The position numbers were made by a program, and so were the translations under genes. Below the pieces are notes generated by a model. The model was given only the letters and a program-made list of their open reading frames with translations. It did not search any database and was not told the DNA's origin. DNA of 64,000 nt from Gemmatimonas phototrophica (lineage in GTDB: Bacteria > Gemmatimonadota > Gemmatimonadetes > Gemmatimonadales > Gemmatimonadaceae): contig NZ_CP011454.1 of the NCBI RefSeq assembly GCF_000695095.2, positions 4,402,001-4,466,000 of the forward strand, written 5' to 3'. Positions 1 through 42,808 of the stretch are shown piece by piece. How positions within the stretch are numbered: the stretch's first letter is position 1; each line of letters opens with the position of its first letter.

Positions 1-1660
1 CTCACCGCGCCGGTTCACCTGCACGCTCCCGCTCGACACCGTCGTTTCGGCGCCATCACGGGTGAGACTGATGATGACCCCCAGCTGGTTGAACCGCGCC
101 ATCTGCTCGGCGTGTCGCCTTCCTGCGCCCGGCAAAGCGGCCGCCGTAAACGACGGATGCATGGGTGGCGTCTCAATCCAGAAGCCGTAGTCGGTGCCCT
201 GCCACCGCAGGAATTGATCACACATGGTGGTGAGCGGAATCCCTGTGCTGGTGGCAATGTCGTGGTCGTAGCGGGCATACACGGCGGTCGTGGGGTGCAA
301 CCGCAACCATTGCCCCACGCCGCCCCCGCCCAGCCCCGACTGCTGCAGCAAGACAGGAGTGCCCACCGCACCGCCAGCGACGACCACAATGGGCGCGTCG
401 ATGGTGAGCGTGTGCGACGTGCCCTGCTGCCGGTTGCGCACGGTGGCCTGTACCCGCTTGAGCGGCGGGGTACCGGAGCCGGTGTCACGCTCACGCAGCT
501 CAATGCGTTCCGCCCGCGCGTCCGTGTACAACTGCGCGTTGGCCGCCAGCGCGCGCGGAATGTAGGTGAGCAGCGTGCTCTGTTTGGCGTTGTGCCGGCA
601 CCCGGTCCCGCAAAAACCGCAGCGCACGCACTGCAGCGCATTGATGCGTCCACGTTCCACCCGCCACCCCAACCGCCGCGCACCATCGAGCAGCAGGCGG
701 TTGTTGGCCGAGTGCGCGTCTTCCGGCACTTCGGCGGCGTGCACTTCCCGTTCGATACGCTCGAACACCGGCGCCATTTCACGTGGCGACATGCCGGCCA
801 CCCCACTCTCCCGTGCCCATTGCTCCAGCACATGGTCGGGGGTGCGCAGCATGATCATCCAGTTCACCGTCGTGCTGCCGCCGGCGGTATCGCCCTGCAC
901 CAGCGCAATGGAGCCGTCGTCGGTGGTGCGCAGGCAGCCGTCGGCGTACAGCCGCTCAGTGAGTGCGGCTTCGTCGTCGGTGAAATCACTGCGGGTATGC
1001 CACCCGCCCGATTCCAGCATCACCACCTGATAGCCCGCCTCGGCCAGCCGGGCGGCGGTCACCGCGCCGCCGGCGCGCGGTACCAATGACCACCACATCG
1101 GCGGTGCGCTGTACGTTGCCGGTGACCTGGTGGCCCGGCACCACGCCCACCGGCACGGGGTCCGGGTCGATGATGTTGGGGAGGATGACCCGTCCGCGGG
1201 CGACCGGCTCACCGGGCACCGGGGAAGTGCCTTCGGGGAGCGCGCCTTCCCACGGGTGCAGCGACTGCCGCAGCCGAAACGGGCCCCCGTAGCCAATGGC
1301 CGCTGCCACTTCGGGGCGGGCATAGTGCACCGACAGCACCAGCCGCCGTACGGATTGCCACGCCGACCGGATGGGCGGCAGCGAAGAGTCGGCCCAGGCG
1401 GCGACGCAGCGCGCCTGATCAACGGGCGCGAGCTGGGCAAAGGGGCGGACCCGCTGAATGGCGAGGGCGACTGTGGCACCAGAGCCCAGTACGGAGAGCG
1501 CCGTACCGACCAGCTGGCGCCGATGCGGCGGCAGCGACCCCAAACGGGCTTCGCAGCGCGCCGCCAGCTCCGGGATGGACTCGGCGGCCGGAGGCGCCCC
1601 ATCAATAATGGCCGTGGCCAGGGCGGCCAGTGCGTCGCGTTGGGCGGGAGAGAAGGACAC
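1..1660 (-). pseudogene. GMC-family (long-chain alcohol oxidase-like) FAD oxidoreductase, frameshifted and cut by the window edge
   Basis: The frame from 1660 encodes an N-terminal helical domain (residues 1-150), as in long-chain alcohol oxidase-type GMC proteins. It then enters the FAD-binding Rossmann strand TADVVVIGT (residues 186-194) and derails into an Arg-rich tail at about 1074-1079. Reading on in the shifted frame restores a normal GMC protein to base 1: AARLAEAGYQVVMLESGG, then TAGGSTTVNWMIMLRTPDH, then a Cys cluster of CxxCGxCxxxC type followed by RHNAKQST at about 595-634. The fix needs one base removed (or two added) in a run of G/C, exactly where GxGxxG should lie. The C-terminal catalytic part is outside the window. 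Members oxidise alcohols with FAD. It may be a sequencing error or a true inactivation; the sequence alone cannot tell. The family call is firm. Confidence 0.5.
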
Positions 1661-1764
1661 CCCCCAACACTACGCCCCAAACACCAGCGCGGGCAACGCT
1701 GCATCATGCAACGTTGCCCGCGCGTGGTCCTGACAGGGTCGCCCGCGTGGCGACCCGAGCCGCG

Positions 1765-2127
1765 TCAGGAGTTGGCGTTGAACAGGTCCTTGGTTTCCTG
1801 GTGGGTAAGCACCCAAATGGAATAGCCACCAAAAAGCGTGCCCCACGGCCACCGGAAGAGACGCAGCGCCGAGACGACCAGCACGACATAGCGGGCCCAA
1901 TTCTGGTGGTTCAGCAGCGCGACACCGGCAATGAGGCCGAAGATACTCATGGCGCCAATCACAATGCCCATAACCACCCCGGCCACACTCCCCACCACCA
2001 TGGCGACGGGATTGAGCGTGGCAAGCGATCCGAACACGGTGCCAAAGAGCGCTCCCAAGGCGGCGAGAACGCCCAGAGCACTGTAAAGCAGATTGACCAG
2101 GCCAACGACTTTGATATGCGTGCGCAC
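1765..2127 (-). CDS. small multi-pass membrane protein, function unknown
   Basis: A 120-residue protein with little but hydrophobic segments: about residues 7-30, 40-72 (long and Gly/Ala/Val-rich, possibly two passes) and 80-105. It ends in a short polar tail. I recognise no family motif or catalytic residue. It lies between the GMC oxidoreductase gene and the EamA exporter on the same strand, with about 100 bp on each side, so it may be transcribed alone. I chose the ATG at 2127 because it opens straight into the first membrane segment; two overlapping frames here give poor, Arg/Pro-rich translations and were dropped. It is probably an inner-membrane protein of unknown role. Confidence 0.5.
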   Translation of the reverse strand: MRTHIKVVGLVNLLYSALGVLAALGALFGTVFGSLATLNPVAMVVGSVAGVVMGIVIGAMSIFGLIAGVALLNHQNWARYVVLVVSALRLFRWPWGTLFGGYSIWVLTHQETKDLFNANS

Positions 2128-2226
2128 TGACGGACTCCGTGAAGTAAGGGGACACTATCCCGTACGGGTGGGGGTCCGGCGCGTTTCAACAGGGCGTGTG
2201 TGGGTGCATTCGACACACGGGCGGGG

Positions 2227-3192
2227 TCAGCTGGCGATGGCTTTCCGACGAGCGTCCACCAGGCTCACCAGCGCCACGCCGCCCACAATGACGGTCATGG
2301 CCACCCAGGCCATTCGGGGTAATCGCTCGCCCCCCAGCGCCACGCCCAGCAGGACCGCAACCAGCGGATTCACGTAGGCGTAGGTACCTACAGCGGCCGG
2401 GCTCGCCACCTTGAGCAACCACATATAGGTGGAGAAGCCAATCAGTGACCCGAAAGTGATCAGATACAGTAGCGACAGTAGCGAAGTAAGCGACACCGTA
2501 GACGGGTGCACGCGGCTCCATTCGCCCATCACCAGCGACAGTACCGAAAGCAGTGTGCCACCGGTCAGCATCTGCATGGAGATGGCCAGCGCGGCCGGTT
2601 TGGCCTGGTGGGCGGTGCGGGAATAGAGCGACCCCACCGTCCAGCTGAGGGAGCCCAGGGCCAGCACGGCGGCGCCCATGGGGTCAACGGCAGCGGTGCG
2701 ACCGGCGGCCGAGGCGGCCGAACTCGCGGCGGGGAGCACCAGCAGCCCCACACCAACCAGTCCAATGAGCACCCCCACCACCTGCATCACCCGTGGCCGT
2801 TTTCCCTGATAGGCTTCGCACAGCACCAGCCAGAGCGGCACGGTGGCCACCAGAACGGAGGTGAGCCCGGAGTTCACCCGCTGGCTGGCCCACGACACGG
2901 CGCCATTGCCCACGAACAGCAGCAGCGTGCCTACGATGGCCGAGTCGCGCCACTCGGCGCGGGTGGGTTTGGCCGCCCCGCGCCAGCGCGTGAAGGCGTA
3001 CAGCGCACTACCGGCAATGAGAAAACGCACCGCGCCCATGAAGAAGGGCGGGATGGTTTGCACCCCCCACTTGATGGCGAGGTACGTGGAGCCCCACACC
3101 ACATAGATGATGAGAAACGCACCCAGCAGCTGCCACCGGGGGACCGCAGACGGCACAGTGTTGGCGGTGGAAGAAGCGGCGTTCGGGCTCAC
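2227..3192 (-). CDS. EamA / drug-metabolite transporter superfamily exporter
   Basis: About 321 residues with ten hydrophobic segments arranged as two repeated EamA units, including the typical first-helix motif VVWGSTYLAIKWG and, in the second half, the GTYAYVNPLVAVLLG motif. DMT proteins of this type export amino acids or small metabolites across the inner membrane; the substrate cannot be read from sequence. I place the start at the GTG at 3192, which forms a GTGA overlap with the stop of the upstream flippase-like gene. That suggests translational coupling. An upstream start at 3300 in the same frame is unlikely, since the added residues are Arg/His/Pro-rich and overlap the neighbour. Confidence 0.5.
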   Translation of the reverse strand: MSPNAASSTANTVPSAVPRWQLLGAFLIIYVVWGSTYLAIKWGVQTIPPFFMGAVRFLIAGSALYAFTRWRGAAKPTRAEWRDSAIVGTLLLFVGNGAVSWASQRVNSGLTSVLVATVPLWLVLCEAYQGKRPRVMQVVGVLIGLVGVGLLVLPAASSAASAAGRTAAVDPMGAAVLALGSLSWTVGSLYSRTAHQAKPAALAISMQMLTGGTLLSVLSLVMGEWSRVHPSTVSLTSLLSLLYLITFGSLIGFSTYMWLLKVASPAAVGTYAYVNPLVAVLLGVALGGERLPRMAWVAMTVIVGGVALVSLVDARRKAIAS

Positions 3193-4586: not shown

Positions 4587-5756
4587 GTGAGCACCCTGTC
4601 CCGTCGTGAGTGGCTTCGTACAACCGGTGTGGGACTGGGCGCCAGTGTGGCGCTCCCCGGTCTGCTCCCCGCGTCCGAGATGTCACGCGTACTGGGTGGC
4701 GGGCTGCCGTATTCGGCGCTGCTCAATCAGATGGAGCGCGACGTGACCACCGCGCGTCGGGCGGCCGGGCCGATACGGCTGAACTTCAACGAAAACCCGT
4801 TCGGCATGTCGCCCAAGGCCAAGGATGCGCTCATGGGCAACTGGGCGCAGCACACCTGGTACGTGCCGCCCATCCGCGAAGAGGTCGCGGCCACGTTCGC
4901 GAAGCATGTGGGCGTCCCGGTTGATCACGTGCTGGTCACGCAGGGCTCGAGCGAAGTGCTCTCCATTCTCGCGCTGGCCTACAACATGAATGGCGGCGAG
5001 ATCGTGGCGCCGTGGCCCACGTTCGAAGATCTGCCGCGCTGGGGCGAAACACTCGGCGCCAAGGTGCACAAGGTGCCGCTCGATCACCGTCTGGATCATG
5101 ACCTCTACCAGATGGACCAGAAGATCAGCGGCAACACCAAGCTGGTGTTCGTGTGCAACCCCAATAACCCCACGTCCAACCTGGCCGACGACCAGGCGCT
5201 GCGCGACTTCGTGTCCAACGCCGCCAAACGTACGACCGTGATCGTGGACGAAGCGTATTACGACTTCGTGGATATGCCGGGGTACAAGAGCATGACCGAT
5301 CTCGTGCTCAAGGGCGAGAACATCATCGTGTCGCGCACCGCGAGCAAGATTCACGGCCTCGCCGGTCTGCGCGTGGGCTTTGCCGTGGCGCGCCCCGACA
5401 TCATCAAGAAGCTGGGGCAGTACGTGAGTGGCGACCCCAACGTGTTCGGCCTCACCGCCGCCAACGCCTCGCTCATGGACACGGAATATCAGGCGTTCGT
5501 GAAAGCCAAGAACACGCAGGGGCGGCAGATGCTGCTCGACGCCGTGGCCAAGCTGGGCAAGAAGGCCGCGCCGTCGCAGACGAACTTCGTGTTCTTCGAA
5601 GCTGGCAAGCCCGTGGAGCAGATGCAGAAGCACTTCGCGAGCAAAGGCTTCACGATTGGCCGTGCCTTCCCGCCGTACACCGACTGGTGCCGCGTCTCCA
5701 TCGGCACGCCGGATGAGATGAAGCAGTTCGTAGAGGTGCTGCCGGGGGCGTTTTAG
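4587..5756 (+). CDS. Tat-signal aminotransferase of the histidinol-phosphate aminotransferase (HisC) family
   Basis: A 389-residue fold-type I PLP aminotransferase. Visible motifs: NFNENPFG (66-73), TQGSSE (118-123), NPNNPT (191-196), DEAYYDF with the PLP-ring Asp (221-227), SRTASKIHG with the Schiff-base Lys 254, and GLRVGF with the PLP-phosphate Arg 262. It starts with SRREWLRTTGVGLGASVALPG, a twin-arginine signal followed by a hydrophobic stretch, so it is probably exported folded with its cofactor or anchored at the membrane. The GTG start at 4587 gives this signal. No his genes are nearby, so a role in histidine biosynthesis is doubtful and the substrate is unknown. Long inverted repeats lie on both sides of the gene. 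Confidence 0.5.
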   Translation: MSTLSRREWLRTTGVGLGASVALPGLLPASEMSRVLGGGLPYSALLNQMERDVTTARRAAGPIRLNFNENPFGMSPKAKDALMGNWAQHTWYVPPIREEVAATFAKHVGVPVDHVLVTQGSSEVLSILALAYNMNGGEIVAPWPTFEDLPRWGETLGAKVHKVPLDHRLDHDLYQMDQKISGNTKLVFVCNPNNPTSNLADDQALRDFVSNAAKRTTVIVDEAYYDFVDMPGYKSMTDLVLKGENIIVSRTASKIHGLAGLRVGFAVARPDIIKKLGQYVSGDPNVFGLTAANASLMDTEYQAFVKAKNTQGRQMLLDAVAKLGKKAAPSQTNFVFFEAGKPVEQMQKHFASKGFTIGRAFPPYTDWCRVSIGTPDEMKQFVEVLPGAF

Positions 5757-5758
5757 CT

Positions 5759-6082
5759 GAGATCTGAGGTCTCAGAGTCCCGATTCGGAAGTGCGAGCGT
5801 TGGGACGATCGAGGTGCGATGGATATCGATGTCGGACATCCGATGACAGCGAGTTGAGAGGTCCGAGCACTTCGTCCGCGCGTATGTGCCCCATACGGGC
5901 CTCGTTAGGCAGCGGGGACGACCGCTGTTCCAGCGGCGTCCGTGCGGGGCACTCACGTGCCGACGCCAGCACTCGGACCTCTCAACTCGCTGTCATCGGG
6001 CCTCTCACACTCGATATCCATCGCAACTCGATCGTCGCAACGCTCTCACCTCAGAGTCGCGATTCTGGGAACTCAGATCTCC
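5759..6082. repeat. 324-bp imperfect inverted repeat between convergent genes
   Basis: Starts 3 bp after the stop of the aminotransferase gene and ends 12 bp before the stop of hrpB. The outer ends are GAGATCTGAG (5759-5768) and CTCAGATCTC (6072-6081). Arms of about 110 bp (5759-5870 and 5969-6082) match at roughly four of five positions by eye, and contain a perfect 28-bp match (5840-5867 against 5972-5999). Pairing appears to continue inward (GTGCCCC near 5888 against GGGGCAC near 5947), leaving a loop with its own small hairpin (CCGCTGTTCCAGCGG near 5930). It covers the whole gap and could fold as one giant hairpin. A bidirectional transcription stop is the simplest role; a mobile palindromic element is the alternative. 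No ORF here looks real. Confidence 0.5.
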
Positions 6083-6093
6083 CACCGCGGGCA

Positions 6094-8625
6094 CTAGGTG
6101 CCTCGCGGTTTCGCCCGTCTCGTCGCCGTTGCCGTGAGCGGGTCGTCTGGCCACGGGTGCCTCGGGTACCGTCCGCGCAGTTCCTTGCGCACCTCGAAGT
6201 AGCTCGACTTCCAGAAGCCCGCGAGGTCTCGCGTCACCTGAACCGGTCGCTGCGCCGGTGAGAGCAGATGCAGTGTGAGCGGTACGCGCCCGTCAAAGAG
6301 CATGGGGGTGCTGGTCCAGCCGAAGACTTCCTGCAGCTTCACCGCCAACACCGGCGCGGTGGGGTCGGTGTAGTCGAGCGTGATGCGCGAACCGCTGGGC
6401 ACTTCCATGTGCGTGGGCGCCAAGCGGTCCAGCGCAGCCCGCTGATTCCACGGCACGAGGCTGAGCAGCGCCTCGTGCCAGTCCACCTGCTCCAGCTGCG
6501 CCCATGTGCGCACACCATCGAGATACGGCGCCAGCCACTCGGGCAGTGTGGCCACCAGTGCCTCGCTGGACACATTGGGCCACGACGCATCCTGCGCGTG
6601 CAGAAACGCCAGGCGCTCCCGCAGGTGCAACGCGCCTTCGCGCCACGGCCATGTGTCGGCGCCGAGGCGCACCAACTGCGCACACAGCGCGGCACGCACG
6701 CTCTCCGCATCAGGGGTCCGCTGCGGCTTTTCTTCCAGCGTAATCGCGCCCAGCGACACCCGCTGCACCGCCTTCACACTGCGTGTACGCTCGTCCCACT
6801 CTACCACATCCGCACGCACGATCTGCTCACCGAAGTCTGTGCGAATGTCCTCCAGCGACAACGGCGCCCCGCGCACGATGCGATACTCCGGCGGTTGCCC
6901 TTCCAGCTCCGCCACGGCCAGATACGGCTCGTCGTACAGACTGTCGCCCTTCACCAGCGCCGCCCCGCTGCCGTTGCGCAGCAGATAGCGCCCCTCGCTC
7001 CCCGCACGGCGTTGTGCCACACGATCGGGAAAGGCCAACGCCAGCAGCGCGCCCACATCGTCGGTTGGCTCGCGGCCAGCGGCAGCCTGCACACCCGCGC
7101 CGGCCACGCGTCGCTCAATATCGATGGCGCTCTGCTTCACCCGCCGCACACCGTCACGATCGGCGCGCGCACCGTACATGCCCAGCGCTCCGCCATCGCC
7201 CCCGCGTTGCAGCAGCTCGGTGCGCAGACGCAAATCGGCCGGTGGACGCGCGAACCCTTCGGCGCGAATCACATCACGCTCCTCCAGCAATGCGGCAATG
7301 GCCGCCCCCATGCTCAGCGCACCACGCTCGGCGGCCACCAACACCAGATGCGCCAACCGCGGCGCCAGCGGCAGCGCCGCCATCCGGCGTCCGTGCGCCG
7401 TAATGCGGCCGGTGGCATCCAGAGCGCCCAACTGCAAGAGCAACGTACGCGCCTGCGCAAAAGGCCCGGCGCGCGGCACATCGAGCCATCGCAGGACGGT
7501 CGGGTCGCTGATGCCGGCGTCGGCCAGCTCCAGCGCCAACCCCGACAGGTCGGCATCAATGATCTCGGGACGCGAACTGGCCAGAAAACCATGTTCTTCG
7601 TGTACATCCCACAGTCGGTAGCACACCCCCGGCGCCACACGTCCGGCACGTCCGCGGCGCTGATCAGCCGAGGCACGACTCACGCGAAGGGTGTGCAACC
7701 GCGTGAGCCCGGCGGTGACATCATGGCGAGGTACACGCGACAGGCCGCCATCGACCACGACGCGCACGCCTTCCACCGTGAGGCTCGTTTCGGCCACACT
7801 GGTACTGAGCACCACTTTGCGCATCCCTGGCGGGGCAGCCGCGAGCGCTGCGTCCTGCTCAGCCAACGGCATGGTACCGTGTAACACATGTACGCGCACA
7901 TTGCCGGCCACAGAGCCAACAAGACGCTCCTCCACGCGACGCTGTTCCCCCATGCCGGGGAGAAACACCAGCACATCCCCTTCGCATTCGGTGAGCGCAT
8001 CGCGCACCACCCGACTCACGGTGGCTTCCAGCTTCTCGTCACTTCGTGGTGGCCGGTGATGCGTGACGATGGGGAACATGCGCCCACTGCTGCGCACCAC
8101 CGGTGCAGGGCCCGCCTCGGTGCGCAGCAGCTCGGCCACGGCATCGCCATCCAGCGTGGCCGACATGACCAGCACACGCAGGTCATCGCGCACCTGCTGC
8201 GTTTCCAGCACCAGCGCCAACCCCAGATCGCCCTGCAGTGAGCGCTCGTGATACTCGTCAAAGAGCACGGCGCCGTAGCCGTCGAGTGTGGCGTCGGCCG
8301 ACAGCAGGCGTGACAACACCCCTTCGGTTACCACTTCAATGCGCGTGCGGGCACTCACCCGCGTCTCGCCGCGCACGCGATAGCCTACGGTGCCACCCAC
8401 CTGCTCGCCCAGCTGTTGCGCCATGTAGTGCGCGGCGGCGCGCGCCGCCAGACGGCGCGGTTCCAGCATGACCACGCGCTGCCCGTCCATCCACGGCTCC
8501 TGGAGCAGCGCGAGCGGCACACGCGTGGTTTTACCGGCACCCGGTGGCGCTTCCAGCACCGCCGACGAGCACGTACGCAACGCCTCCCGCAGCGCGGGAA
8601 GCGCGTCATCTATTGGCAACACCAT
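6094..8625 (-). CDS. hrpB: ATP-dependent helicase HrpB
   Basis: About 843 residues, the usual length for HrpB. A DEAH/RHA-type superfamily 2 helicase with Walker A APPGAGKTT (26-34), Walker B DEYHER (123-128, the HrpB form of DEAH), motif III VMSATLDG, and motif VI in QRRGRAGRVAPGVCYRL. The long C-terminal HrpB-specific part follows, with a typical end in which the residues HLLSPAQRPVQVTRDLAGFWK are followed by SSYFEVRKELRGRYPRHPWP. It is a cytoplasmic, probably RNA-acting helicase; in enterobacteria the exact role of HrpB is poorly known. I chose the ATG at 8625 over a TTG five codons upstream. It is convergent with the aminotransferase gene. Confidence 0.5.
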   Translation of the reverse strand: MVLPIDDALPALREALRTCSSAVLEAPPGAGKTTRVPLALLQEPWMDGQRVVMLEPRRLAARAAAHYMAQQLGEQVGGTVGYRVRGETRVSARTRIEVVTEGVLSRLLSADATLDGYGAVLFDEYHERSLQGDLGLALVLETQQVRDDLRVLVMSATLDGDAVAELLRTEAGPAPVVRSSGRMFPIVTHHRPPRSDEKLEATVSRVVRDALTECEGDVLVFLPGMGEQRRVEERLVGSVAGNVRVHVLHGTMPLAEQDAALAAAPPGMRKVVLSTSVAETSLTVEGVRVVVDGGLSRVPRHDVTAGLTRLHTLRVSRASADQRRGRAGRVAPGVCYRLWDVHEEHGFLASSRPEIIDADLSGLALELADAGISDPTVLRWLDVPRAGPFAQARTLLLQLGALDATGRITAHGRRMAALPLAPRLAHLVLVAAERGALSMGAAIAALLEERDVIRAEGFARPPADLRLRTELLQRGGDGGALGMYGARADRDGVRRVKQSAIDIERRVAGAGVQAAAGREPTDDVGALLALAFPDRVAQRRAGSEGRYLLRNGSGAALVKGDSLYDEPYLAVAELEGQPPEYRIVRGAPLSLEDIRTDFGEQIVRADVVEWDERTRSVKAVQRVSLGAITLEEKPQRTPDAESVRAALCAQLVRLGADTWPWREGALHLRERLAFLHAQDASWPNVSSEALVATLPEWLAPYLDGVRTWAQLEQVDWHEALLSLVPWNQRAALDRLAPTHMEVPSGSRITLDYTDPTAPVLAVKLQEVFGWTSTPMLFDGRVPLTLHLLSPAQRPVQVTRDLAGFWKSSYFEVRKELRGRYPRHPWPDDPLTATATRRAKPRGT

Positions 8626-8652
8626 CGAAGTACGGACCAACAGTCGTGCCGG

Positions 8653-24755: not shown

Positions 24756-25961
24756 ATGCACGTGGTCATTGTGGGGGGTGGCGTCATGGGCGCCGCCACC
24801 GCGTGGTTCCTCACCCGCGAGCACGGGGTGCAGGTCACCGTGCTGGAACGCGACGCCTCGTACGCCACGGCATCCAGCGCCCTGTCGGCCTGCGCCATTC
24901 GGCAGCAGTTCTCCACGGCCATCAATATCCGCATTTCGCAGGACAGCCTGGCGTTCTATCGGGCCATCGGCACCGAGCTCGCCGTCGGTGACGAGGTGCC
25001 GAACATCGGCCTCGTCGAGCCGGGCTACCTCTATCTCGCGGGGACCCCCGCCGGCGCCGCAGTACTGCGCGATCAGCACACGCTGCAGGAAAGCCACGCG
25101 GTCCATACGGCGCTGCTGTCGCCCGACGAGCTGACAAAACGCTTTCCCTGGATCAACACCGACGGACTCACCCTCGGCTCACTTGGCCTGTCGACCCCGA
25201 CCAGCGGCGAAGGGTGGTTTGATGGTTACGCCGCAATGCAGGCGTTCCGCAAAGCCGCCACCGCCATTGGCGTGCGCTTCCTCGAAGAAGAAGCGATCGA
25301 CTTTGTGGTGGAGCACCACGACGGCCCGCCGCAGGTGCGCGCCGTGCACACGGCCAGTGGGCAATCCATTGCCGCCGATGCCGTGGTCATTGCCGCGGGG
25401 GCGTGGTCCGCACGGGTGGCCGACAAACTGGGCATCGCGCTTCCCGTGCACGCGCGCAAGCGGGATGTGTTTGCCATTGAGGCCAACGTGGATGCCGAGA
25501 GCGCGCTGCAACAGGCTCCGCTGGTCATCGATACCACAGGCGTCTGGTTCCGGCCAGAGCTGGCCGCCGGCCAGTTCTTGTGTGGGGCACCGCCGCGTGG
25601 TGAAGACCGTGACGATGTCCCCCTCGATCAGGTGGACCACGGACTCTTCGAAGAAGTCATCTGGCCGGCGCTCGCCGCGCGTGTGCCGGCCTTTGATGCG
25701 CTGCGCGTGACGTCCAGCTGGGCGGGCTACTACGAGATGAACAGCTTTGATCACAATGGCCTTGTGGGGCCGTTGGGCGCGTACACCAACGCCTACACTG
25801 CGTGCGGCTTCTCCGGCCATGGCCTGCAGCAGGCGCCGGCGGTGGGACGCGGACTGGCTGAGTACATCGCCACGGGCGAGTACCTCACACTGGATCTGTC
25901 GCCGCTGCGAGTGAGCCGGATTGATGAGGGGCGGCCCCTCCTCGAAAAGAACGTCATCTGA
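24756..25961 (+). CDS. FAD-dependent amino acid oxidase/dehydrogenase, DadA/sarcosine oxidase-like
   Basis: 401 residues. The dinucleotide-binding fold is at the extreme N terminus: VVIVGGGVMGAATAWFL (3-19) and E31 in VLERDAS. Later features are ADAVVIAAGAWSARVADKLG, the D-amino-acid oxidase-type VHARKRDVFAIE, RPELAAGQFLCGAPPRG and the C-terminal ACGFSGHGLQQAPAVGRGLAEY. These enzymes oxidise amines of amino acids, passing electrons to oxygen or the quinone pool. I chose the ATG at 24756 because the FAD motif starts 3 residues later; an ATG at 24711 is in frame. It is divergent from the cyclodeaminase-like gene, with 125 bp between, so one control region may serve both. The DadA role is a good guess, the substrate is not known. 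Confidence 0.5.
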   Translation: MHVVIVGGGVMGAATAWFLTREHGVQVTVLERDASYATASSALSACAIRQQFSTAINIRISQDSLAFYRAIGTELAVGDEVPNIGLVEPGYLYLAGTPAGAAVLRDQHTLQESHAVHTALLSPDELTKRFPWINTDGLTLGSLGLSTPTSGEGWFDGYAAMQAFRKAATAIGVRFLEEEAIDFVVEHHDGPPQVRAVHTASGQSIAADAVVIAAGAWSARVADKLGIALPVHARKRDVFAIEANVDAESALQQAPLVIDTTGVWFRPELAAGQFLCGAPPRGEDRDDVPLDQVDHGLFEEVIWPALAARVPAFDALRVTSSWAGYYEMNSFDHNGLVGPLGAYTNAYTACGFSGHGLQQAPAVGRGLAEYIATGEYLTLDLSPLRVSRIDEGRPLLEKNVI

Positions 25962-25978
25962 GGGAAGGGAGCAGGTGG

Positions 25979-26024
25979 CAGAAAGCAGGGGGCAGTGGGA
26001 GCGCTTCCTGCTCCCTGCTTCCTG
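25979..26024. terminator. imperfect inverted repeat between convergent genes
   Basis: CAGAAAGCAGGGGGCAG (25979-25995) pairs with CTGCTCCCTGCTTCCTG (26008-26024) at 15 of 17 positions, around a 12-nt loop. It lies between the convergent FAD oxidoreductase and MFS genes and probably ends both transcripts. The repeated GCAGG words give it several possible registers. Confidence 0.5.
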
Positions 26025-26031
26025 CGTCCCG

Positions 26032-27393
26032 CTACCTCCTCTCGTTTCTCGCCACCACCGCCACCGTCACCGCCCCCGCCACCCCGAGCGCGGCCAGCGT
26101 GAGAAACGCCGCGGCCGAGCTTCCAGTCGCGGTGCGAACGCGCCCAATGAGATCCGGCCCAAAGTGGCCGCCAAGGTTCCCAATGCTGTTGATCCACGCA
26201 ATGCCGGCAGCGGCGGCCGTACCACGCAGATAATTCGTGGGAATGGCCCAGAACGTACTCATGCTGGAGAGTACCCCTGCGGCTACCAGCGAGAGCGCGA
26301 CCAGCGAGGGCACCACCTGGGTGCCCGTCACGGCAAGCAAGCCGAGCCCCACTGTCGTGACGACCATTCCGCCGGTGACATGCCAGCGACGTTCGCCGGT
26401 GCGATCGGAGTGTCCCCCCCACAGCAGCATGGTCACCCCGGCCACTCCCCACGGAATCATGGAGAGCAGGCCGATCTGCAGATACGCGGTGCGGTCGAGC
26501 CCGAGCTCCTGGATGATGGTGGGCATCCAGAAGTTCACGCCGTAGAGGGCGACCGCCATGGTGAAGTACACAAAGGCCAACGCCCACACGGTGCCGTTGA
26601 GCAGCGCCGCGCGCGCGGTGCGTGGTGCAGTACCACCGTGCACCGCCGCCTCACGCTCCCCCTGCAGATCCGCCAGCACCTGCGCACGATCGCTCTCGGA
26701 AAGCCAACGGGCCTGCGCCGGTCCATCGGGGAGAAAGAGCAACACCAGCACCCCCATGACCAGCGACGGCGCGCTCTCCAGCAGAAACAGCCAGCGCCAT
26801 CCGCTCCATCCGCCACTGCCATTGAACGTGTCCATGATCCATCCGGACAGCGGGGCGCCCAACACATTGGCGACCGCCACCGCCGTCATGAACTTGGCAA
26901 AGGCGCGAGCGCGTCGCGTGGAGGGGAACCAGTAGGTGAGATACAGGACGATGCCGGGAAAGAATCCGGCTTCCGCCATCCCCAGCAGCAGACGCAGCGC
27001 ATAGAAGCTGAACTCGGTGCGCTCGAGCCCGAACCACCCCGGTAACGGCCCCACGGGGAGCACATCCACAAACGCAAAGGCCGCCGAGACCAGCGCCCAC
27101 GTGATCATGATCCGCGCAATCCAGCGCCGCGCACCCACCCGTTCGAGCAGCAGGTTGCTGGGCACTTCAAACAGGAAGTAGCCCACGAAAAAAATGCCGG
27201 CCCCAAAGCCGTACGTGGCATCGGACCAACGCAGCTCCGTCACCATCTGCAGTTTGGCGAACCCCACGTTCACGCGGTCGAGATACGCCACGATGTAGCA
27301 CACGAAGAGCAGCGGCAGCAGACGCCACGCAATACGGGCGTAGGCCGCGTCCGTCGAGGGGCTGGAGTGGTGAGGCAACGCCGGTGATGTCAT
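26032..27393 (-). CDS. MFS transporter, anion:cation symporter (ACS/phthalate permease-like) family
   Basis: 453 residues with about twelve hydrophobic helices. The first has LLPLLFVCYIVAYLDRVNVGFAK, the hallmark start of the ACS family, followed by EVPSNLLLERVGARRWIARIM between helices 2 and 3 and GMAEAGFFPGIVLYLTYWFP in helix 4/5. The second half has YLQIGLLSMIPWG and GHSDRTGERR, a second loop motif. ACS members import organic anions such as sugar acids, phthalate or peptides. It lies next to the amino acid catabolic genes, so uptake of a related acid is plausible but unproved. ATG at 27393; it diverges from the rhomboid gene with 74 bp between. Confidence 0.5.
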   Translation of the reverse strand: MTSPALPHHSSPSTDAAYARIAWRLLPLLFVCYIVAYLDRVNVGFAKLQMVTELRWSDATYGFGAGIFFVGYFLFEVPSNLLLERVGARRWIARIMITWALVSAAFAFVDVLPVGPLPGWFGLERTEFSFYALRLLLGMAEAGFFPGIVLYLTYWFPSTRRARAFAKFMTAVAVANVLGAPLSGWIMDTFNGSGGWSGWRWLFLLESAPSLVMGVLVLLFLPDGPAQARWLSESDRAQVLADLQGEREAAVHGGTAPRTARAALLNGTVWALAFVYFTMAVALYGVNFWMPTIIQELGLDRTAYLQIGLLSMIPWGVAGVTMLLWGGHSDRTGERRWHVTGGMVVTTVGLGLLAVTGTQVVPSLVALSLVAAGVLSSMSTFWAIPTNYLRGTAAAAGIAWINSIGNLGGHFGPDLIGRVRTATGSSAAAFLTLAALGVAGAVTVAVVARNERR

Positions 27394-40056: not shown

Positions 40057-41484
40057 ATGACAACGACACTTCTGGGCAGACGGCTCGGACTGGCAGGGGC
40101 ACTTGGATTGGTGTTTGCTATGGCAGCCTGCGGCGATGCGCCGCCGGAGGCGGGCAAGCGTGAAGATCCGCGCCCCAACATCGTCTTCGTCCTGCTGGAC
40201 GATGCGCGCTACGACGATCTCATTGATCATCCGTTTGCCGCGCTCCCCAATCTGAAGCAGCTGGCCGCCGAAGGCGCGTCGTTTCAGCACTTCTATACGG
40301 CGGCCCCTCTCTGCTCGCCCAGTCGGGCGGTGTTCATGACCGGGCAGTATCCGTATCACAACGGGATCACCGACAACGGCGAACGGGCCGAGCGCAGTCA
40401 TCAGATTGTTACCTTCCCCAAGTTGCTGCACGATGTGGGGTATCACACCGGCTTCTTCGGGAAGTGGCACATGGGGCACGAAGATGATTCTCCGCGCCCG
40501 GGCTTTGACCGGTGGGTGAGTTTTGTGGGGCAAGGTGTGTACTTCAACCCCGATCTCAACATTGACGGGGTCCCGGCCAAGGCGCAGGGGTACATGACCG
40601 ACATCCTGACCAACGAAGCCGTGTCGTTCATCAAGGCAGCGCCCGACAGTCAGCCGTTTCTGGTGTTCATGGCGCAGAAGGCGGTGCATCCGGAGATTCA
40701 CCCCAACTATGTGCGCTCATTTCCGCCGGCGCCGGGTGATGAGCAATTGTATGCGCAGGACACCGTACCGCATGGCCCCAGCTGGCGTGCCCCAACCACC
40801 GGCAAGCCGGCGCTCCAGCGACCCCATGATGCCAGCGACCCGCGCAGCCCCAAAGGCGGTCTCCCCGATAGTGTGGTGAAAGATCGCCTGCGCATGCTGA
40901 GTGCGATTGATCGCAGTCTGGGCGTACTCATTGCCGCCCTCAAAGCGCGCGGCGTCTACGACCAGACGGTGTTCGTGGTGACAAGTGATCAGGGGTTCTT
41001 TTACGGAGAGTTTGGCCTCGCCCAGGAACGCCGGCTGGCGTACGAACCCAGCATTCACATCCCGCTGATTGTCCGACATCCAGCGCTGGCCAAGGCGGGA
41101 GCGACACCACGCGCGCTCTCCAGCAACGTGGACATTGCTCCCACCCTGCTGGCCATTGGCGGCGCCGCCATCCCCGCGAGCATGGACGGTCGCTCTCTCC
41201 TCCCTGCCCTCGCCGCCGATACCGCCACCATCCGGCAGGACATGCTCATTGAGTATTACTCCGACAAGGAGTTCCCGCGTCTGCAGGGCATGGGCTATCA
41301 GGCCGTGCGCACCGATCGCTACAAGTTCATTCGCTACAAGGAACTGCAGGGAATGGACGAACTGTACGACCTGCAGAACGATCCGCATGAACTGGACAAC
41401 CTACTCCCAAACCGCGCGCCAACCGCAGTACTGCGCGAGATGACGGTCCGGTTGAATGCGCTCACATCGGGGAAACAGCAGTAA
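40057..41484 (+). CDS. lipoprotein sulfatase (formylglycine-dependent, type I)
   Basis: About 475 residues from the ATG at 40057. Signal peptide with lipobox MAAC (Cys 25), so membrane-anchored outside the cytoplasm. Sulfatase motifs are RPNIVFVLLDDARYDD with the metal-binding Asp pair (39-54), and the active-site CSPSR (86-90), where Cys is expected to be converted to formylglycine. Then come HTGFFGKWHMGHEDD and VVTSDQGFFYGEFGL with a metal-binding Asp. The end has DELYDLQNDPHELDNL. It cleaves sulfate esters from an unknown substrate. No formylglycine-generating enzyme is in the window. Its stop codon lies inside the palindrome at 41481-41588. Confidence 0.5.
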   Translation: MTTTLLGRRLGLAGALGLVFAMAACGDAPPEAGKREDPRPNIVFVLLDDARYDDLIDHPFAALPNLKQLAAEGASFQHFYTAAPLCSPSRAVFMTGQYPYHNGITDNGERAERSHQIVTFPKLLHDVGYHTGFFGKWHMGHEDDSPRPGFDRWVSFVGQGVYFNPDLNIDGVPAKAQGYMTDILTNEAVSFIKAAPDSQPFLVFMAQKAVHPEIHPNYVRSFPPAPGDEQLYAQDTVPHGPSWRAPTTGKPALQRPHDASDPRSPKGGLPDSVVKDRLRMLSAIDRSLGVLIAALKARGVYDQTVFVVTSDQGFFYGEFGLAQERRLAYEPSIHIPLIVRHPALAKAGATPRALSSNVDIAPTLLAIGGAAIPASMDGRSLLPALAADTATIRQDMLIEYYSDKEFPRLQGMGYQAVRTDRYKFIRYKELQGMDELYDLQNDPHELDNLLPNRAPTAVLREMTVRLNALTSGKQQ

Positions 41485-41588
41485 CGGCGTTATGGGTCAT
41501 GGGTTATCGGGTGACCGAGTAACTGCGGTAGCTGCAGTTACCGCAGTTACGGGATAACCCGGTAACCCATAACCCATAACGCCTTTAC
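41481..41588. repeat. ~108-bp near-perfect palindrome between sulfatase and phhA (copy 1)
   Basis: A palindrome without loop, centred on CTGCAG at 41532-41537. The left half starts GTAACGGCGTTATGGGTCAT and the right half is its near-complement ending in AACGCCTTTAC. About nine of ten positions pair by eye. The TAA stops of both convergent genes (41482-41484 and 41585-41587) are part of the palindrome. A second, more diverged copy is at 42560-42664. It may end transcription in both directions; its duplication around phhA argues for a mobile palindromic repeat as well. Confidence 0.5.
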
Positions 41589-42532: not shown

Positions 42533-42808
42533 AAACCTGCCCTCAATGCAAGGAAAAGCGTAACCGCGTCATGAGTCATGGGCTATCGGCGTACCGAGTA
42601 ACCGCGGGAACTGCTACCGCAGTTACGGGATGACCCGATAACCCAGGATCCATAACGCCGTTACGCCGTTCCGCCGTTCCAAATGTGATCTCTCCCCGTC
42701 ACAGCGCCGGTGCGGGTAAACACACTGTGCGAGGACTGCGCACGCCGGGCCTTTGCTGCCGCATCATGCGCGGCACACCATGCCATTCCAACCTCATCGG
42801 ATTCGTGA
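42533..42808. repeat. intergenic region with palindrome copy 2 (42560-42664)
   Basis: 276 bp between phhA and the divergent barrel gene. The palindrome at 42560-42664 starts GTAACCGCGTCATGAGTCAT and ends in ATAACGCCGTTAC. Its halves pair at roughly four of five positions by eye, with the centre near 42612. It shares its outer and inner words with the copy at 41481-41588 (TTATGG, ATCGG, CCGAGTAAC, CCGCAGTTACGGG). The stretch 42665-42808 has no ORF of merit; promoters of both neighbours probably lie in it or beside the palindrome. Confidence 0.5.

Follow-up and report, generated by a model that had tools for sequence, protein, structure and literature searches.

Several described systems resemble the palindrome analyzed here. 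The 23S rRNA intervening sequence (IVS) of Coxiella burnetii has a 28-bp inverted-repeat stem and an ORF for the protein S23p (IVP), with tandem heptamers (GACAGAT) ahead of the ORF; RNase III excises it, and a former mobile element has been suggested as its nature (PMC4990558). Where rRNA IVS and IVP proteins come from and what they do is unclear, although they have been known for more than 25 years (PMC4990558). MITE-type elements of 100 to 300 bp include ERIC, YPAL, Nezha, and others (PMC2267715, PMC3733652), and the REPs of the CGTC type have no dedicated transposase (PMC3733652). Here, we studied a window (the whole stretch of 64,000 nucleotides that was analyzed) with a long palindrome between two converging genes. 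It probably belongs to a family of non-autonomous mobile palindromes that is specific to its lineage and lies behind genes; these palindromes could be IVS-like elements outside rRNA. Its parts and its neighbors are as follows.

Left arm, 5759-5867, reverse strand: GA-rich on the forward strand, with the outer heptad CTGAGATCTGAG and the core GATGGATATCGA at 5818-5829
Center, 5868-5971, no strand: about 104 nt, with nested hairpins, including GGGGACGACCGCTGTTCCAGCGGCGTCC; contains the sole asymmetry of the element
Right arm, 5972-6082, forward strand: TC-rich on the forward strand, with the core TCGATATCCATC at 6011-6022 and CTCAGATCTC at the outer end
Upstream gene, 4587-5756, forward strand: aminotransferase-like by eye, 389 aa, with a stop that adjoins the element
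Convergent gene, 6094-8640, reverse strand: HrpB-type helicase by eye, about 840 aa, with a stop about 12 bp from the element

The original prediction described a 324-bp inverted repeat filling this convergent gap, and the repeat is real. Its outer arms (5759-5829 and 6011-6081) are complementary at 86% over 71 nt, the perfect 28-nt block lies at 5840-5867 and 5972-5999, and the termini GAGATCTGAG / CTCAGATCTC are present as claimed. Since the flanking stops are at 5754-5756 (upstream gene) and 6094-6096 (converging gene), the repeat fills the gap of 5757-6093 except for about 14 bp. Folding, which had been proposed as a check, gave an end-to-end structure of -251.8 kcal/mol (z = -20.6), where shuffled sequences averaged -143 +/- 5.3. 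Pairing does continue past the arms, inward to the center, as had been read from the letters. The ORF at 5791-6261, which overlaps the repeat described as devoid of coding content in the original prediction, is mechanical. No family of Rfam 15 matched it above the gathering threshold; a sub-threshold match to Metazoa_SRP (32.9 bits for a threshold of 70) was judged to be a long-hairpin artefact.

A search of the own genome (4.717 Mb, one contig) with the arms, also proposed as a check, revealed many copies and not a single one. BLAST of the window repeat matched about 40 places, and the motif GATGGATATCGA occurs 76 times (reversed control, 0); three of its matches in or near coding sequence (503118, 508689, and 2492371) look like chance and were dropped. 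A one-arm profile search found 83 arms longer than 60 nt. The family amounts to about 50 dispersed loci, with 30 complete palindromes and about 20 loci that are chimeric or have one recognizable arm. The centers of the complete copies span 30 to 157 nt, mostly 81-83 or 104-106 nt. The arms, of about 105 nt and about 73% identity between elements, share invariant columns that include the core TCGATATCCATCGCA and carry TC dinucleotides with a period of 7 nt (z of 48 and 57 relative to mononucleotide shuffles, which preserve base content alone). The elements end in CTCAGATC-type heptads, sometimes in arrays of (TCAGATC)2-4. In 40 of 45 cases, the outer heptads read as CTGAG, and so contain TGA, when followed along the incoming gene's strand. 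Most single arms have their outer end towards the stop codon.

The own genome has a second family, A2, whose palindromes carry GGGTTATGGGTTATCGGGTTACCGAGTAAC. Eleven chimeric copies of the family of the window repeat have half of an A2 element in place of one arm, and most chimeras lie at 0.75-0.94 Mb. Two A2 palindromes are in the window.

A2 palindrome, 41481-41588, no strand: contains GGGTTATGGGTTATCGGGTTACC and fills another convergent gap
Second A2 palindrome, 42552-42672, no strand: lies in a divergent gap

Other palindromes were observed in the course of this work. One at 25960-26043 of the window has heptads of the CCTGCNN type, lies in a convergent gap, and has a relative at L022:3153-3236. 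Palindromes of about 100 bp, GCTGCCGTCTG...CAGACGGCAGC, are dispersed in the congeners G015, G019, and G025 (loci L087, which is G015:C18, L088, and L089), with tandem copies of 119 bp in G015, and one was found in a fetched locus of the own genome (L036:3863-3964). In the region 1.05-1.45 Mb of G001 (L170, L182, L171, and L174), palindromes 120-155 bp long have cores such as CCTGCAGGAT, which suggests further families in that genome. The pattern GASTCNNGASTCNNGASTC, the reversed control for the heptads, is very frequent in G045, G062, G034, and G084 (463, 85, 56, and 17 per strand, respectively); these are heptad arrays with a different 5-bp core in other genera.

The comparison with relatives shows that the family is specific to its lineage. 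BLAST of the own family against 29 congeners gave no match. Four of them (G015, G019, G025, and G020) have the same two flanking genes with 11 to 13 unaligned bp in between, and the window copy is therefore an insertion. At this site the nearest relatives have ...GCGTAAGCTCAGGTGCC..., i.e., TAA-GC-TCA, where the own genome has 337 bp. The near-empty site itself contains CTCAG, the core of the heptad. Three of these congeners, the closest ones (G015, G019, and G025), have a sister family, with dozens of matches in each, arms of about 93 nt, a 20-nt center, a CTCGACTCTCACGCCTATCC core, and CTSAG heptads; no sequence of this family was found in the own genome. The two families have unrelated sequences and a common plan: TC/GA arms with a 7-nt period, (CTSAGNN)n ends, and a short center. 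Within the sister clade, elements at the same site are 83-94% identical, which shows that the sister family was inherited there. Of the 25 elements of G015 that were sampled, 9 lie in an orthologous gap where the own genome also has an element; with an assumed 2000 available gaps (the assumption ranges over 1000-3000), P is about 4e-9. At these shared gaps the own and sister sequences are no more alike than elsewhere (22.4 versus 21.5). A point against mobile elements is that the use of identical gaps by two lineages could also stem from an ancestral element turning over in sequence at its place.

The plan extends further. Triple CTSAG heptads occur in 22 of the 118 genomes of the taxonomic family, several of the heptad loci in G074, G013, G020, G002, and G067 are long palindromes, many of them directly behind genes, and heptad-ended palindromes are present in two other genera. 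The core motif gave four single matches to unrelated phyla among about 85,000 genomes, which we attribute to chance. The own family had no matches in plasmids, phages, or viral contigs, and such an origin was rejected. Among the natures first suggested for the repeat, that of a non-autonomous palindromic element is supported by its many dispersed copies, the near-empty sites in relatives, and the lineage-specific families.

If these are mobile palindromes, they could be a family of MITEs unrelated to IVS and moved by a conventional transposase that is now lost or unrecognized. In favor of this are the small size of the elements and the number of their copies, the long terminal inverted arms that share a conserved core, the near-empty sites, and a placement in transcription-prone positions. 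However, the junctions of the window site show no clear target-site duplication, no transposase is flanked by arms among the arms located in the own genome, and no mobilizing enzyme of any other kind was identified for the own palindromes. The absence of a duplication and of such an enzyme also counts against the preferred reading. The ends are fuzzy heptads where those of a MITE would be sharp, and solo arms, chimeras, and half-exchanges occur. We regard this explanation as possible, though doubtful. The preferred reading, of mobile palindromes that may be IVS-like, has to be weighed next against explanations in which the elements serve the host.

For their placement, genes were predicted from hexamers by a gene finder that had been trained on the window. 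Of the complete own copies, 14 are in convergent gaps, 16 in tandem gaps, and 0 in divergent gaps, for a background of 29, 77, and 29 such gaps at the same loci (p = 0.0016 for the absence from divergent gaps); they lie at a median of 20 nt from a stop and 97 nt from a start. The sister-family elements (n = 46) are alike, with 18 convergent, 28 tandem, and 0 divergent gaps (p = 8e-5), at 17 nt from a stop and 94 nt from a start. Copies directly behind stops and in convergent gaps are what one would expect of bidirectional terminators or 3' mRNA stabilizers, with selection keeping the stem at the ends of genes. In line with this, double (compensatory) changes affect 14 of 68 consensus pairs, and two arms from the same element resemble each other more than arms from different elements do (0.771 versus 0.733, permutation p < 1e-4). 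Yet most copies have no U-tract within or next to them, the feature that follows the GC-rich hairpin in an intrinsic terminator; a U-tract hairpin was found at 1 of 50 element-adjacent 3' ends, versus 9 of 103 controls. Copies in tandem context, transcribed one way, show no preference for G-U over A-C mismatches (101 versus 122), and columns 14-33 of the arm, the middle module, show no within-element matching. The likeness of the arms within an element is explained as well by arm-to-arm copying at the DNA level as by selection on RNA. The idea of a structured RNA, part of the original prediction, is weak: the compensatory changes are in its favor, but the G-U counts and the unmatched middle module of the stem are not. 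Since single arms also occur and four congeners do without the element at the gap of the window, a host function in terminating or stabilizing transcripts seems unlikely to account for the family.

The palindromes could also be oversized REP/REPIN-like repeats of the CGTC type. As in REPs, BIMEs, and REPINs, they are dispersed and extragenic, they lie mostly behind genes or in convergent gaps, and they exist as monomers and as inverted pairs; a short hairpin stands beside a CGTC in the center of the element. But the arms have about 105 nt where the REP unit, tagged GTAG or CGTC, has 20-40, and, as judged by eye, an arm on its own does not form a hairpin. The CGTC is found only beside the central hairpin, the arms are heptad-periodic, and one copy has an IVP gene (see below). 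The own genome lacks a RAYT, with 0 matches to Y1_Tnp (PF01797). We therefore consider this explanation improbable.

The strong TC period of 7 might instead mark arrays of binding sites for a nucleoid or segregation protein that are kept off the replication terminus: dnaA is near coordinate 1, and no element was observed opposite to it, between 1.85 and 3.17 Mb. This gap is strong in raw counts, but after the merging of clusters, avoidance of the terminus becomes marginal (p of about 0.03-0.06; p = 0.05 for the largest gap), and the sequences turn over between close species, which makes such arrays very improbable. Finally, the C-rich and G-poor arms, with regularly spaced YC dinucleotides (TC period of 7-9, with C over G on one arm strand), recall the rut sites of Rho-dependent terminators, a reading to which we give hardly any credit: in complete copies the stem ties up the C-rich arm and, because most single arms have the outer end facing the stop, the transcript of the adjacent gene meets the GA-rich strand first.

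The reading that we prefer, of mobile palindromes possibly related to IVS, draws on one particular copy. At 1231113-1231979 of the own genome, two inverted arms that retain their inner GTGCTTCGTCCGCAC / GTGCCGACGAAGCAC ends surround a gene of 133 aa in place of the usual center. Its product matches PF05635, 23S_rRNA_IVP (23S rRNA-intervening sequence protein), with E = 2.7e-16, and has weak sequence similarity to XCC0516 of Xanthomonas; its predicted fold is a low-confidence model and was given no weight. G015 and G019 have the gene at this site too, and there it adjoins arms of the sister family. The dN/dS, about 0.23 when the lineages are compared and 0.04 inside the sister clade, indicates a protein maintained by purifying selection. 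The position of the gene exactly in the loop, together with the match between this plan and that of the Coxiella IVS, is why IVS-like elements located outside rRNA seem the best description of the palindromes: both have an inverted-repeat stem, an IVP/S23p ORF in the loop (here in one copy), tandem heptamers, and copies lacking the ORF. They differ in that the palindromes lie at about 50 dispersed sites behind protein genes and not inside 23S rRNA, have arms of 105 nt instead of 28 bp, and form lineage-specific families. The weak point of this reading is that each genome examined has a single copy of the IVP gene, with one IVP-bearing palindrome known in the own genome, and the fetched palindromes of other genera have no IVP gene nearby. 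Since this single copy is at a shared gap, the gene could also be a neighbor rather than the element's own.

From the sequences, we infer how the element may move, how its RNA may be processed, and what the IVP may do. The mobilizing enzyme of the element would recognize the arms and heptads. By supplying a TGA on the strand of the incoming gene, the outer heptads could make insertion at the end of a gene harmless. Read-through transcripts would form a stem of more than 100 bp, which RNase III probably cuts and which may set or protect the 3' end of the mRNA. Most palindromes would have lost the IVP gene or never had it. More tentatively, and with real doubt on our part, the 23S rRNA IVS might belong to a far larger class of mobile palindromes whose normal place is behind protein genes, as those of its members that are bound to rRNA. 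The IVP, a four-helix-bundle protein, would then spread the IVP-less palindromes in trans by way of the heptad arms, and lineage-specific families would repeatedly replace each other at the same landing sites.

Compared with REPs and MITEs, the family is new in its size, plan, and turnover. A search of the open-access literature yielded no account of such repeats. The occurrence of different sequences in shared gaps of sister clades is unusual for bacterial repeats and bears on the origin and the replacement of palindrome families. If the dispersed IVP-bearing palindromes are relatives of IVS, mobility becomes directly testable. Furthermore, the ends of mRNAs in this little-studied family of bacteria could be influenced by the long stems that follow dozens of genes.
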